Assembly (NCBI RefSeq): GCF_001746835.1
Contig: NZ_CP016094.1
Location: 3,115,501-3,179,500, forward strand
Direction: 5' to 3'
DNA from: Lacunisphaera limnophila
GTDB taxonomy: Bacteria > Verrucomicrobiota > Verrucomicrobiia > Opitutales > Opitutaceae
Length of the DNA: 64,000 bases
Part shown: piece by piece, positions 25,330-30,344 of the stretch
Layout: every line of letters starts with the position of its first letter
How positions within the stretch are numbered: position 1 is the first letter of the stretch
Translations under genes and position numbers: made by a program
Notes under the pieces: generated by a model
Told to the model about the DNA's origin: nothing
What the model saw: the letters and a program-made list of their open reading frames with translations, nothing else
Databases searched by the model: none

Positions 25330-27153
25330 TCAGGCCTTGCCGGACTTCGCGGCCTTTTGACGGGCGGCGTTGTTCAGGATCCGCTTGCGCAGGCGCAGGC
25401 TCTTCGGGGTGACCTCGACCAGCTCGTCGGCGGCGATGTACTCGATGGAGCGCTCGAGCGAGAGCTTGGTCGCGGGCGTGAGGCCGGAGGCCACGCCTTC
25501 GCCCTGGGAGCGGAAGTTGGTGAGCTTCTTCTCGCGCACGGCGTTGATGGCGATGTCCTCGTTACGGGGATTCTCGCCGACGATCATGCCCTCGTAGACC
25601 TGCTCGCCGGGGTTGACGAAGAGCTTGCCGCGCTCCTGACACATGACGAGGGCGTAGCCCGTCGTCTCGCCGGCCTCGGTGGCGATGAGCGTGCCGGTGA
25701 TGCGGGTGAGGACCTCGCCCGCGAGCGGGCCGTATTCCTTGAACAAGTGGCTGAGCACGCCGCGGCCGCTGGTGGCGTTGACGACGTCGATCTCCATGCC
25801 GATGAGGCCGCGGGTGGTGATGACGGCCTCGAGCATCGTGGAGTGGGAGAGCTTCTCCATGTTGGTCAGGCGGCCCTTGCGGTTCGCCAGATTCTGCATG
25901 ATGGAACCGACGCACTCATCGGGTACCTCGATCCAGACGGTCTCGTAGGGCTCCTGGCGCTCGCCGTTGGGTCCGATCTTCTCGATGACGGTCGGGCGGG
26001 AGACGAGGAGCTCGAAGCCCTCGCGACGCATCGTCTCGACCAGCACGGCGACCTGCATGGCGCCGCGGGCCTTGACGTTGAAGATGCCGGCCTTGTCGGA
26101 GTCCTCGATCTGGATGGACACGTTGACCTTGAGCTCGCGCATCAGGCGCTCGCGCAGCTGGCGGGAGGTGACGAGCTTGCCTTCCTGGCCGACGAGCGGG
26201 CCGTCGTTGACGCAGAACTGCATCTCGAGGGTCGGCGGGTCGATCTGGGTGAAGGGGAGGGCATGGGCCTCCTCGCGCACATCGAGGGTGTCGCCGATGT
26301 CGACGTCCTCGAAGCCGGAGAGACCGACGATGTTGCCAGCCGCGGCGCTCTCGACCTCACGCTGGCCGAGGCCGGTGAACTCGAAGATCTTGGTGATCTT
26401 GGCGCGGATTTTTTTGCTGGTCTCGTTATGGCGGATGACGTTGACGGCATCACCGATGCGGACGGTGCCGCCGAGGATCTTGCCGACGGCGATACGGCCG
26501 ACGTAGTCGCTCCAATCAATGTTGGACACGAGCATGTGGAAGGGCTCGTCGGGCTTGGCGAACGGGGGCGGGACGTGCTCGATGATCGTCTCGAAGAGGG
26601 GGGTCATGTCCTTCTTCTCCTCGCCGAGGTGGTACATCATGTAGCCGTCGCGGCCGGAACCATAGACGACGGGGGCGTCGAACTGCTCCTCGGTGGCGTT
26701 GAGCTCCATCAGGAGTTCGAGCACCTTGTCGTACATCTTGGCCGGGTCGGCGTTCTCGCGGTCGATCTTGTTGATGACGATGACGACCTTGAGGCCGTGC
26801 GCGAGGGCCTTGCGGAGCACGAAACGGGTCTGGGCCTGGGGACCGTCATAGGCGTCGATCACGAGGAGCACGCCGTCGACCATGCGGAGGGCGCGTTCGA
26901 CCTCGCCGCCGAAGTCGGCGTGGCCGGGGGTGTCGAGAATGTTGACGATCTTGTCCTTCCAGTGGACCGAGGTGTTCTTGGCCTTGATGGTGATGCCCTT
27001 CTCCTTCTCGAGGTCCATGGAGTCCATGGCGCGTTCCTCGACGCGTTGGTTGGCGCGGTAGACACCGCCCTCCTTGAGGAGCTTGTCGACCAGGGTGGTT
27101 TTACCATGGTCAACGTGGGCGATGATGGCGATGTTGCGGATGTTCTGGTTCAT
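25330..27153 (-). CDS. typA: Ribosome-associated GTPase TypA/BipA
   Basis: A 607-residue translational GTPase. The G1 motif is '[15 protein letters not shown]' (residues 12-26), G3 'DTPGHADF' and G4 '[10 protein letters not shown]'. The EF-G-like domains follow, and the C-terminal part contains '[18 protein letters not shown]' and '[34 protein letters not shown]', which are specific to TypA. It binds 70S ribosomes and helps ribosome assembly and stress or low-temperature growth. A strong terminator follows. Its 5' leader contains a long nested inverted repeat (27296-27358), and a structured-RNA candidate ends about 225 bp upstream on the same strand. Confidence 0.96.
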
Positions 27154-27295
27154 GTTCGGGCGGACCTGTTTAAAATGGGAAAACGGTCACGGTGCGTCCC
27201 GGCCCGGGGCTTGGCAAGGCTGAACCTGAGGAAGCTGTGTGACGTCGAGGCGGCGCCTCTGACGGAGCTTCGAAAGTTACCTAACTCCCTTGAAG

Positions 27296-27358
27296 TCAGC
27301 GCGCCGGGCCATGGCTAGAGCCATGGTTCCGGGCATAAAGTTGGGCCCGGCGCGCTGA
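27296..27358. repeat. Nested inverted repeat in the typA leader
   Basis: The arms TCAGCGCGCCGGGCC (27296-27310) and GGCCCGGCGCGCTGA (27344-27358) are perfectly complementary over 15 bp. They flank an inner hairpin CCATGGC-TAGA-GCCATGG (27309-27326) that shares two bases with the left arm. There is no T-run on either side, so it is not an ordinary terminator. It lies about 140-205 bp upstream of the typA start and could form a folded leader or a cruciform. Function unknown. Confidence 0.6.
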
Positions 27359-27371
27359 AAAGGGGTGTCTA

Positions 27372-27410
27372 CTAAAGATAAAGGCCCGGGTTCCTTGCGG
27401 AACCCGGGCC
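27372..27410 (-). terminator. Strong terminator closing a reverse-strand transcript
   Basis: GGCCCGGGTTCC (27383-27394) pairs perfectly with GGAACCCGGGCC (27399-27410). On the reverse strand the loop reads GCAA, a GNRA tetraloop, and the stem is followed by TTTATCTTTAG. The forward strand has no T-run after the stem (AAAATCGG). No protein gene precedes it on the reverse strand, so it must end the transcript of the adjacent non-coding region. Confidence 0.82.
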
Positions 27411-28050
27411 AAAATCGGGGGTGGGTGCTCGCCACGCACTCTTCCCCATTCGCACAACATTGGGCGCCTCGCTTTCGCGGGCCGTGTGCTTCCCGACGCT
27501 ACTCATCGCGGCATGCGATGCTGTCGGTCTCATAGCGGGACCGTCCCGGACATTTCTGCTCCGGAATTTTTCGAGTGAGGCCTCTCCGCCCGGTTCGGCT
27601 CCATCTGCCGATGGGAAACTCGCCGGACGGGTGTTGGCACGCCTGCAACGTGGCATTTCGCACCAGCACCTTGCCACGGGGACGGCCCCGGCTTTTGGCC
27701 GGGCGTTGGCCCCGTGTAACGGGTCTGACCTCTTACCTCTCAGGTTGCTTTCGATTTGCAGTTGGGTGATCCCGCTTTACGGGACCGCCCCAATGAGGAG
27801 GTTTTGCGAGCTTTGCCAGACTCGCCCGCTCCCCGCTGCGCCTTGTCCCTTTCGCGCCCCGCCTTTGCGGGCCGGGCCTTTTGGTGGGGTGGACCCACCG
27901 GAACAACGCGCTGCGTCCTGGTCATACAGTAGCAACCATAACCCTCTGGGTAACTGCATCGGTGCAAGGCCCGAAACTGGCCTTGGACCTGACTCGGCTC
28001 GGACGTGGTTTCTAGGTCACGCCTCGCCGCACAGCTCCTATGTCGCAATA
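27411..28050 (-). ncRNA. Candidate structured non-coding RNA (class unknown)
   Basis: No plausible protein gene lies here, yet the region is full of stable hairpins whose loops make sense on the reverse strand. These include CGC-GAAA-GCG near 27470-27482, GCCCGGC-CAAAA-GCCGGGGC at about 27684-27703, CCCG-TAAAG-CGGG at about 27770-27783, CCGC-AAA-GGCGG at about 27860, and AAGGCC-AGTTTCG-GGCCTT at about 27966-27984. A-rich and GNRA-type loops are common in large structured RNAs. A strong terminator follows at 27372-27410. The stretch with the CCCG-TAAAG-CGGG hairpin and a nearby GAGGTAAGAGG superficially resembles the P8-P12 part of RNase P RNA. However, the invariant RNase P and tmRNA sequences are missing. 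The 5' end is a guess. Confidence 0.5.
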
Positions 28051-28283
28051 CTGGAACGGCTGCGACGCCGTCCAGAGGAACTGGTGATATTTGCCTGCCG
28101 GCGGCTCGCGCCGCGGAGGGGAGGGCGTCACCAATTAACGCCCGCCTTTCCCCGGTTGCCCGGGATTATCCCAGTCGTGCTCCCGGCGGGTTTTTCATGC
28201 CGCCGTGCTTCGACTGTTCTATCAAGGAACGGATGCAACATGCGTCCCGCACGGCGAAAAGTCACGGGGTTGTTCCTCCCATC

Positions 28284-28364
28284 TTATTCACCCCCGCGGG
28301 CGGGTTCCGGTTTTTCCACCGGTGAATAACTTGTGCGCATCCGCTTGCTCCCCGGTTGTTCACA
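28284..28364. other. Cluster of DnaA-box-like 9-mers
   Basis: Four near-consensus sites (consensus TTATNCACA) lie within 81 bp: TTATTCACC at 28284-28292, TTTTCCACC at 28312-28320, TTATTCACC on the reverse strand at 28321-28329 and TTGTTCACA at 28356-28364. Two of them form an inverted pair. Each has one or two mismatches, so this may be chance. The preceding stretch 28051-28283 holds several GC hairpins and nothing else I can name. Confidence 0.35.
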
Positions 28365-28427
28365 TGTTCGACGGACAAGGGGGAACTGCGGCCTTGCGGC
28401 GTCGTCCGCCGGCGCCGACAAGAAAGC

Positions 28428-30344
28428 ATGTTGCCCCGCCCCCTGCGCCTGCTCGCCCGTCTCGTTGTCCTGGGGTTGCTCCCCGTGATGCTCCGCGCCT
28501 TGCCTGAATCCGGCGAAGTGCACGTGTGGGAAACGCAGGAGATCACCTTCCAGGCGGCGTCGGACTACGCCAATCCCTACGCCGAGGTGGATTGCTGGAT
28601 CGAGCTCGAGGGCCCCGGTTTCGCCAAGCGCGTGTACGGCTTCTGGGATGGCGGGCGGACCTTCAAGGTGCGTTTCGTCACCACGGCTCCCGGGGAATGG
28701 CACTGGCGCTCGGGCTCCAACCAGCCGGCCGACGCCGGTCTGAATCGCGGGGCCGGCAAACTGAAGGCCATTGCCTGGACGGACGCGGAAATGGCCGCGA
28801 ATGCCAACCGCCGGGGCTTTGTCCGCACCGCCGCCGGTGGTCACGCCCTGACCTACGCCGACGGTTCGCCGTTTTTCCTGGTGGGCGACACCTGGCTCGC
28901 GGCCTCGACCTGGCGTCTGCCGTGGCGCGGGGCGCCCGCGACCCCGGACTACGAGCCCGCCAGCGGCATCAGCTTTGAGGAGGCGGTGGCCTACCGCAAA
29001 CGGCAGGGGTACAACTCCGTGAGCTTCATCGCGGCGTTTCCCAACTGGGCGGCCGATCACCGCGGCGCGACCTTTGCCAACGCCGACGGCATCTACCTGC
29101 GCAACGCCTGGGAAAAATTCGGCCACTGGGCGCCCAACGCCCGGATCTCCACGGCGGACGGCGCGACCACCACCGCGAAGGATATGCATGACGAGGACGG
29201 CAACCGTCCGTTTGAGATGATGCCGGATCGCGACGACGGTCTCGCCAACTTCGACCGCATCAACCCTGCGTACTTCCGCAGCCTCGACCGCAAGATGCGG
29301 CACCTGGCCGACGAGGGATTCGTGCCCTTCCTCGAGACCATCCGCCGTGACAACGCCCCGGCCTGGAAGGCCTATTTCGATTTCAACGTCTCCTATGCGC
29401 GCTTCGTCCAGTACCTCATCGCCCGCTACGGTGCCTACAACCTCGTGTTCAGCGGCATCCACCTGGATTGGATCCCGAAGGACTTCAGCCTGACCGCGGA
29501 TGAGTTCAATGCCGCCCTTACGCATCACTGGAAAACTTACGGTCCGCTGCCGTTCGGCCAGCCTTACACCGTCTTGATCGACAGCGCCACCCACAAGGTC
29601 TTCGGACACGGCGAGACCGCCCCGTGGCTGACCATGCATACGGTCGGCAACAAGCCGCGCAACCATGCGATCTACGCCTCGCTCGAGGAAATCTTCCGCC
29701 TGACCCCCGCGTATCCCGCGGCCAACCTGGAACCTTATTATACGGGCTGGAACCACGCCATCAATCGACCCGGCGGCGAGACCCCGGCGGAGAATTCGGA
29801 CCGCGATAACTATTTCGCGCGCGCCATGATGTACGGTTCGTTCCTCTCCGGCGGTCTGGCCGGTCATGTCCACGGCACCGCGGCCTACGATCTGACAAGC
29901 ACTGGCGAGCCGGCCGGCTGGCGTCCGCATATCTGGACCGCCCTCCGTTACGAGTCGGGAGGACAAATGAAGCACCTGCGTGACTTCGTGCTGTCGGAAG
30001 GCGTGCGTTATCAGGATCTCGAGCTCGCCTCGGCTGATCTGTCCACCCGCTCGACCGCCAATCCCCTGGACGACGGTCTGGACGGCTGGTCATTCATGAT
30101 GCGCACCCCGGAGCGTGATTTCGCGCTGCTCTATTTTGAAAACCGGTCCGGACCGGCGCAGCTCGCGGGCTTTCCGCCCGGGGCGCGTTACCGTTGGACC
30201 TGGTTCAACCCGCGCCAGGGCGGCTGGAGTGAGGCCCCGGAATTGGAGGTCGATGCGGAGGGAAAGCTCGCGACGCCGTCCTTCCCCGTGGGCGAGCCAG
30301 GCATCATCAACGACTGGGCGGCGAAGCTGCGGCGTACGAAGTAG
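28428..30344 (+). CDS. Secreted DUF5060/apiosidase-like (GH140-type) glycoside hydrolase
   Basis: A 638-residue secreted enzyme. After a signal peptide (about residues 1-24) comes a DUF5060 beta-sandwich: 'VWETQEITFQAASDYANPYAEV', then 'GFWDGGRTFKVRFVTTAPGEWHWR'. Next is a DUF4038-type (beta/alpha)8 catalytic domain, opening with 'DGSPFFLVGDTWLA' and including 'YRKRQGYNSVSFI', 'YNLVFSGIHLDW' and 'NLEPYYTGW'; the Glu of that last motif is a likely catalytic residue. A small C-terminal beta domain ends the protein ('RYRWTWFNPRQGGWSE'). Known relatives remove apiose or related sugars from plant pectin. The exact substrate is not readable. The frame opens upstream at 28356 (TTG), but ATG 28428 fits the signal peptide. 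It stands alone. Confidence 0.83.
   Translation: MLPRPLRLLARLVVLGLLPVMLRALPESGEVHVWETQEITFQAASDYANPYAEVDCWIELEGPGFAKRVYGFWDGGRTFKVRFVTTAPGEWHWRSGSNQPADAGLNRGAGKLKAIAWTDAEMAANANRRGFVRTAAGGHALTYADGSPFFLVGDTWLAASTWRLPWRGAPATPDYEPASGISFEEAVAYRKRQGYNSVSFIAAFPNWAADHRGATFANADGIYLRNAWEKFGHWAPNARISTADGATTTAKDMHDEDGNRPFEMMPDRDDGLANFDRINPAYFRSLDRKMRHLADEGFVPFLETIRRDNAPAWKAYFDFNVSYARFVQYLIARYGAYNLVFSGIHLDWIPKDFSLTADEFNAALTHHWKTYGPLPFGQPYTVLIDSATHKVFGHGETAPWLTMHTVGNKPRNHAIYASLEEIFRLTPAYPAANLEPYYTGWNHAINRPGGETPAENSDRDNYFARAMMYGSFLSGGLAGHVHGTAAYDLTSTGEPAGWRPHIWTALRYESGGQMKHLRDFVLSEGVRYQDLELASADLSTRSTANPLDDGLDGWSFMMRTPERDFALLYFENRSGPAQLAGFPPGARYRWTWFNPRQGGWSEAPELEVDAEGKLATPSFPVGEPGIINDWAAKLRRTK

Follow-up and report, generated by a model that had tools for sequence, protein, structure and literature searches.

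The reverse strand of a 64,000-nucleotide stretch of Lacunisphaera limnophila DNA (NZ_CP016094.1, positions 3,115,501 to 3,179,500; hereafter the window, whose numbering we use throughout) carries the gene for MISL, an already catalogued class of large folded RNA of Verrucomicrobiota, in a form longer and more knotted than the Rfam model of the class. With a probability of roughly 60%, we read the locus as a free-standing gene with its own start near 28230 and a boxA-type 15-mer, whose product would act in trans. A scan of the whole window against Rfam 15 returned RF03079 (MISL) at 28171-27424 on the reverse strand, with 524.7 bits against a cut-off of 274.6; the match, 250 bits above that cut-off, spans the complete model (1-751 of 751) rather than a fragment of it, and MISL is the single above-threshold family in the window.

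27424..28171, reverse strand: MISL RNA core (Rfam RF03079 model 1-751, 524.7 bits; covariation)

A sequence-only reading had proposed a large structured non-coding RNA on this strand, which the MISL match and the covariation described below bear out; the span it gave, 27372-28050, has the right location and stops about 180 nt short on the 5' side (Rfam start 28171, leader 28230). It had also suggested a new or very divergent RNA class, prompted by GC hairpins and a terminator that all lie on one strand, and had named a strong Rfam match as the result that would make the RNA a known one. Such a match, full-length and with no second family at threshold, is what was found, and a new class, or a divergent RNase P RNA or tmRNA, now has a negligible probability. 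RNase P RNA, tmRNA and 6S RNA have no Rfam match over threshold anywhere in the window, and nor do GOLLD, ROOL or OLE RNA, so the earlier view that the RNA is neither RNase P RNA nor tmRNA stands. The element GAGGTAAGAGG, taken as an echo of RNase P, actually forms the 5' side of a junction helix in MISL (RNA positions 433-443, paired with 592-599). The window locus shares with RF03079 a full-length match, all model helices and a Verrucomicrobiota distribution; it differs in that the Rfam model, being a covariance model, holds no pseudoknots and begins at GGATAAT, whereas the conserved unit begins about 60 nt further upstream (leader from 28230, Rfam match from 28171), and the 5' leader, its domain P0 and the pseudoknots are added here. 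As far as the open-access literature searched can tell, these three additions appear to be new.

The Rfam fold is supported by covariation. When the Rfam structure was laid on a MAFFT alignment of 105 non-redundant homologues, itself unfitted to structure, 85.9% of cells were paired over 174 pairs and the structure scored 0.413, where shuffles gave 0.173 and slid versions no more than 0.12; compensatory changes, proposed earlier as a check, are present as double changes in 146 of the 174 pairs. Two helices fit poorly (388-391/399-402, 24% paired, and 59-70, 54% paired). A covariation scan, pair counts and shuffle controls yield further pairings that are absent from the Rfam structure line:

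28043..28065, reverse strand: pseudoknot a (28065-28061 with 28047-28043), 98.7% paired, outscoring all 200 shuffles
27743..27937, reverse strand: pseudoknot b (GGTTGC 27937-27932 with GCAACC 27748-27743), 99.0% paired, double changes in 6/6 pairs, 0/200 shuffles
27643..27761, reverse strand: pseudoknot e (27761-27756 with 27648-27643), 95.8% paired, double changes in 6/6 pairs, 0/200 shuffles
27499..27535, reverse strand: possible pseudoknot f (27535-27532 with 27502-27499), 95.5% paired, 2/200 shuffles scoring as high
27918..28134, reverse strand: tentative loop contact g (28134-28131 with 27921-27918), 97.4% paired, double changes in just 2/4 pairs
27836..27913, reverse strand: additional helix c (27913-27908 with 27841-27836), 76.2% paired, score 0.634 (shuffles 0.208)
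27762..27792, reverse strand: additional helix d (27792-27789 with 27765-27762), 84.8% paired, score 0.586 (shuffles 0.224)

Pseudoknots a, b and e are well supported, none of 200 shuffles being as high on either measure, while f and g are tentative. De novo covariation is noisy here, with 24% of the top 200 column pairs being Rfam pairs, and among the runs kept, for neighbour support and at least 70% pairing, some look spurious (-4/686, 83/213). In an empirical null of 5504 chance 4-bp stacks, 211 were at least 95% paired, 3 of them with double changes in three pairs, which makes g in particular tentative.

The RNA ends at an intrinsic terminator, a perfect 12-bp stem (GGCCCGGGTTCC/GGAACCCGGGCC) exactly where the sequence-only reading had placed it, capped by a GCAA loop and directly followed by TTTATCTTT.

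27374..27410, reverse strand: intrinsic terminator (stem 27410-27383, T-rich tail 27382-27374), from sequence, scan and conservation

By scanner count alone the terminator is not unusual (one such site in 27000-28500 against a shuffle mean of 1.7, stem length carrying no weight). Its weight comes instead from conservation across MISL loci, as a terminator-like hairpin lies 3' of the RNA in 78 of 80 loci compared with 20 of 227 control stretches. Between this terminator and typA, the next gene downstream, the window holds a long near-perfect inverted repeat, GTCAGCGCGCCGGGCC ... GGCCCGGCGCGCTGAA (27295-27359), and several relatives begin a similar repeat at the same position.

Protein coding was rejected on either strand, in agreement with the earlier statement that the region holds no coherent protein gene: in the 105 homologues the longest stop-to-stop frames average 134.5 aa on the RNA strand and 145.4 aa antisense, much as they do after shuffling (121.7 and 147.7 aa). 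Folding energy hardly discriminates strand, since both strands fold better than shuffles (z -3.30 reverse, -2.74 forward; 0/20 shuffles equal it on either), and the assignment of the RNA to the reverse strand is based on the Rfam match and covariation.

Upstream of the Rfam boundary, MISL loci share a 15-mer of the form GTTC-N-TTGA-N-AGAAC, found with up to 2 mismatches within 120 nt of the Rfam start in 79 of 80 loci (68 without mismatch, 10 with one and one with two; L145 has none), while none of 1499 control windows taken from these loci contains it. It mostly lies 54 to 64 nt from the Rfam start, with three exceptions at 39, 83 and 117. With up to 3 mismatches allowed, 189 of 190 loci have it; this larger set includes many duplicates and comes down to 108 unique sequences.

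28237..28275, reverse strand: predicted promoter region (A-rich stretch, -35-like GTGACT 28265-28260, -10-like CATGTT 28242-28237)
28216..28230, reverse strand: near-invariant boxA-like 15-mer GTTCCTTGATAGAAC, in 79/80 loci, predicted at or adjoining the transcript 5' end
28173..28215, reverse strand: 5' domain P0 (outer helix AGTCG 28215-28211 with CGACT 28177-28173, plus an inner hairpin)

The promoter is predicted from the base composition of upstream regions, 61 from the family and 18 from other families, placed in register by the 15-mer; this profile is A-rich near -43, has TT at -35/-34 and carries an A/T-rich hexamer ending at -8; a strict sigma-70 scan returned no promoter in the window, so the promoter is a phylogenetic inference. 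P0 directly follows the 15-mer, and a single base separates the 3' end of its helix from GGATAAT. Its alignment derives from the 80 loci by excluding L145, two loci with long spacing (L189, L191) and near-identical rows, which leaves 56, and then L182 with its short spacing. In the resulting 55 sequences double changes occur at all five pairs of the outer helix, pairing reaches 89.1% of cells, and the covariation score is 0.649, compared with 0.176 in shuffles and at most 0.19 when slid. The number of pairs with a double change (5 against 3.9) was equalled by 69 of 500 shuffles, the other four measures by none, and RNAalifold, unguided, returns exactly this helix. Since the P0 pairs covary as RNA, this part of the upstream leader belongs to the transcript.

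The 15-mer itself is conserved as sequence: its GUUC and GAAC arms show no double changes and could form a weak hairpin (-0.5 to -1.0 kcal/mol), the formation of which is unsupported by covariation. We suggest that it resembles a boxA antitermination site, the signal that protects rRNA genes against premature termination. The boxA of the Legionella pneumophila Lens CRISPR array is given as GTTCTTTAAAA in PMC7862264; the window's GTTCCTTGATA matches it at 8 of 11 bases and the variant GTTCTTTGAAA of four loci (L157, L182, L188, L361) at 10 of 11. The same paper describes boxA elements, to which the Nus complex binds, as frequent upstream of long non-coding RNAs, 16S among them. The MISL 11-mer may thus be akin to that of rRNA leaders and CRISPR arrays, and its site likewise has a predicted promoter on one side and a long untranslated RNA on the other; the 15-mer differs in an extra conserved GAAC that an 11-base boxA does not need, and its boxA role is proposed from likeness of sequence. 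Gram-positive boxA sites resemble TGTTCYTTGA. PMC4807359 and PMC10250234 describe boxA, NusB and Rho resistance for rRNA, and the former contends that Nus factors serve rRNA mainly in some way other than antitermination, which calls for caution in the boxA reading.

The alternative that the 15-mer serves a dedicated regulator as its DNA operator, overlapping the MISL start site and having no part in RNA antitermination, is less probable, if still a serious competitor. GTTC-N7-GAAC is a near-perfect palindrome at the predicted start, and its right half (GAAC) is kept in 76 to 79 of 79 loci; against this, the TTGA of the spacer is conserved as strongly as the arms, and the 4.2 Mb L. limnophila genome holds one 15-mer site at up to 1 mismatch, hence no visible regulon. 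The LexA motif of Verrucomicrobia has a spacer of 4 bases, compared with 7 here. Among 57 class genomes sampled, the exact 15-mer occurs in 10, namely in all 9 that carry MISL and in 1 of the 48 that do not, with MISL status taken from a class-level scan whose stricter filters lose weak matches. Separately, genome G076 contains three dispersed copies of a non-MISL element that carries the same 15-mer (GTTCTTTGATAGAAC; L392, L397 and L398, near position 1501), with a common upstream stretch, repeated CGGATAAGTNCGC-like units downstream and no Rfam match at the element; it is possibly another untranslated RNA with the same leader.

On our preferred reading of a free-standing gene with a boxA-type leader, RNA polymerase would start near 28230 and produce a transcript of about 0.86 kb that ends at the terminator near 27374. 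The 15-mer would recruit NusB/S10, so that polymerase, as on rRNA genes, could pass through structured sequence that is not translated and escape termination by Rho. The RNA would fold into a compact, knotted form that may act in trans, either in a structural or catalytic capacity or as part of a ribonucleoprotein.

The genes on either side bear on whether MISL is such a unit or the leader of its downstream neighbour:

25330..27153, reverse strand: typA/bipA, next gene downstream, outside the RNA gene (Pfam TypA/BipA C-terminal and EF-Tu GTPase domains)
28356-30344, forward strand: apiosidase-like protein with DUF5060, divergent upstream neighbour (domain match)

As the sequence-only reading had held, no reverse-strand protein gene lies upstream, at least as far as the nearest neighbour, which is on the forward strand. 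This apiosidase-like gene occupies, as an insertion, the spot where most relatives carry an hrpB-like gene. Among 56 first copies of the family, a divergent hrpB-like helicase gene lies upstream in 49 (within 500 nt in 39; the type was named by eye, and Pfam DEAD, Helicase_C and HA2_N domains are shown in one relative, L411) and typA lies downstream on the same strand in 49, some of the misses on either side being contig ends. That typA is so regularly the downstream gene would suit a cis-acting leader that regulates it, a reading we reject on context and consider very improbable, as typA adjacency fails outside the family's first copies. A terminator separates MISL from typA, and the distance between the two ranges from 152 to 4771 nt, 34 of the 49 loci having typA within 1.5 kb; neither typA nor an hrpB-like gene is near MISL in any of 19 other-family loci or 5 second copies, and no neighbour is conserved outside the family. 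Moreover, all 12 MISL-negative genomes searched keep typA, and in one of them (G320, locus L411) hrpB-like and typA genes stand divergently, 159 nt apart. The confinement of the hrpB-MISL-typA order to the family indicates that the synteny is inherited and the RNA is its own unit, and argues for a trans-acting RNA. In three other-family loci (L177, L179, L184; cluster c29) a gene that by eye resembles transcription terminator Rho lies within about 1.5 kb downstream of MISL.

The L. limnophila genome (4.2 Mb, one contig) has one MISL copy. MISL is matched in 19 of 29 relatives (17 over cut-off), among them 16 of the 18 other genomes of the genus, in one of which (G015) it appears as fragments at a contig end. 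Under stricter filters that lose weak matches, it was found in 52 of the 100 family genomes (29 of 49 genera), 21 of 113 genomes of the class and 19 of 194 of a phylum sample; with many near-complete genomes lacking it, MISL is accessory. Five genomes (G001, G018, G319, G339, G363) have two copies, and a tree places the second copies in two small clusters, separate from the first copies found in the same genomes. Four of these five second copies (L134, L142, L169, L172) have a universal stress protein, S30AE/HPF-type, DksA/TraR-type or Hsp20 gene within about 2.7 kb, as identified by tblastn and, for six of these proteins, by Pfam; the four show four different arrangements, and L359 has none of these genes. 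Within the stretch available, one of the other 75 loci (L183, Hsp20) has a member of these families nearby, giving p = 1.6e-5, a value inflated by the choice of the four families after the loci had been seen.

A 22-base pattern scan returned 50 stretches, 44 of them with Verrucomicrobiota names, of which the two scanned against Rfam (L026, L033) both match MISL. The six others (L023, L030, L040, L049, L058, L068) have no Rfam MISL match, L023 and L040 also having none at E 0.05, and are therefore taken as chance.

The idea that MISL is a phage or plasmid RNA was rejected, blastn of the window RNA finding no match in phage and plasmid records. Five pattern scans of viral contigs returned 15 distinct stretches, all of which were scanned against Rfam, and four match MISL (L073, 1-2470; L077, 1-2347; L335, 1-4330; L353, 1-1046). 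Three are IMG/VR levivirus contigs with MISL in sense directly 5' of the maturation gene: L073, with near-whole MISL, encodes Phage_mat-A (weak, 22.1 bits) and RNA_replicase_B (145 bits); L077, in which MISL is cut at the 5' end and near the last quarter, encodes Phage_mat-A (98 bits); and L335, with the 5' third alone, encodes both. The fourth viral contig, L353 (15.1 kb), joins a piece from the 5' part of MISL (Rfam 33-259, 66 bits) to a DUF3383 phage gene. If single-stranded RNA phages had taken up MISL at the genome 5' end, a host structural RNA would have entered an RNA virus and would name Verrucomicrobiota as its host; we rate this a long shot, and consider the four contigs far more likely to be reverse-transcriptase/template-switch or assembly chimeras, because the levivirus joins fall at three different MISL positions in one orientation, L353 joins MISL to a DUF3383 gene and related phages begin without MISL. 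The last point comes from two sets of 80 relatives (the best of 295 and of 564), of which 29 had their 5' ends read and 11 without MISL were scanned against Rfam; L271, which shares the maturation protein of L077, begins downstream of the MISL part and cannot decide the matter. The L073 leader has no match in phages. Single-stranded RNA phages have no DNA stage, so chimeras formed by template switching in RNA libraries would imply that MISL is transcribed.

For MISL, no function is reported in the open-access literature searched, which does not include the original description of the class (Weinberg 2017). GOLLD, ROOL and OLE are likewise presented, in PMC12286853, as large, intricate bacterial RNAs of poorly understood function; GOLLD and ROOL are placed there in phages and prophages, unlike MISL, which lacks blastn matches in phage and plasmid records and has stable chromosomal synteny inside the family. 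With its added 5' domain and pseudoknots, the unit described here is a better construct for probing or cryo-electron microscopy than the Rfam boundaries. The boxA reading offers a directly testable handle through Nus factors and a Rho inhibitor and, if correct, means that MISL synthesis draws on the antitermination aid used for ribosomal RNA, suggesting high, processive expression. As second copies adjoin ribosome-hibernation, universal-stress, DksA/TraR-type and Hsp20 genes, we hazard the weakly supported guess that MISL may be an accessory RNA of a stress or slow-growth programme; the position of these copies points to growth conditions in which a phenotype could be sought.
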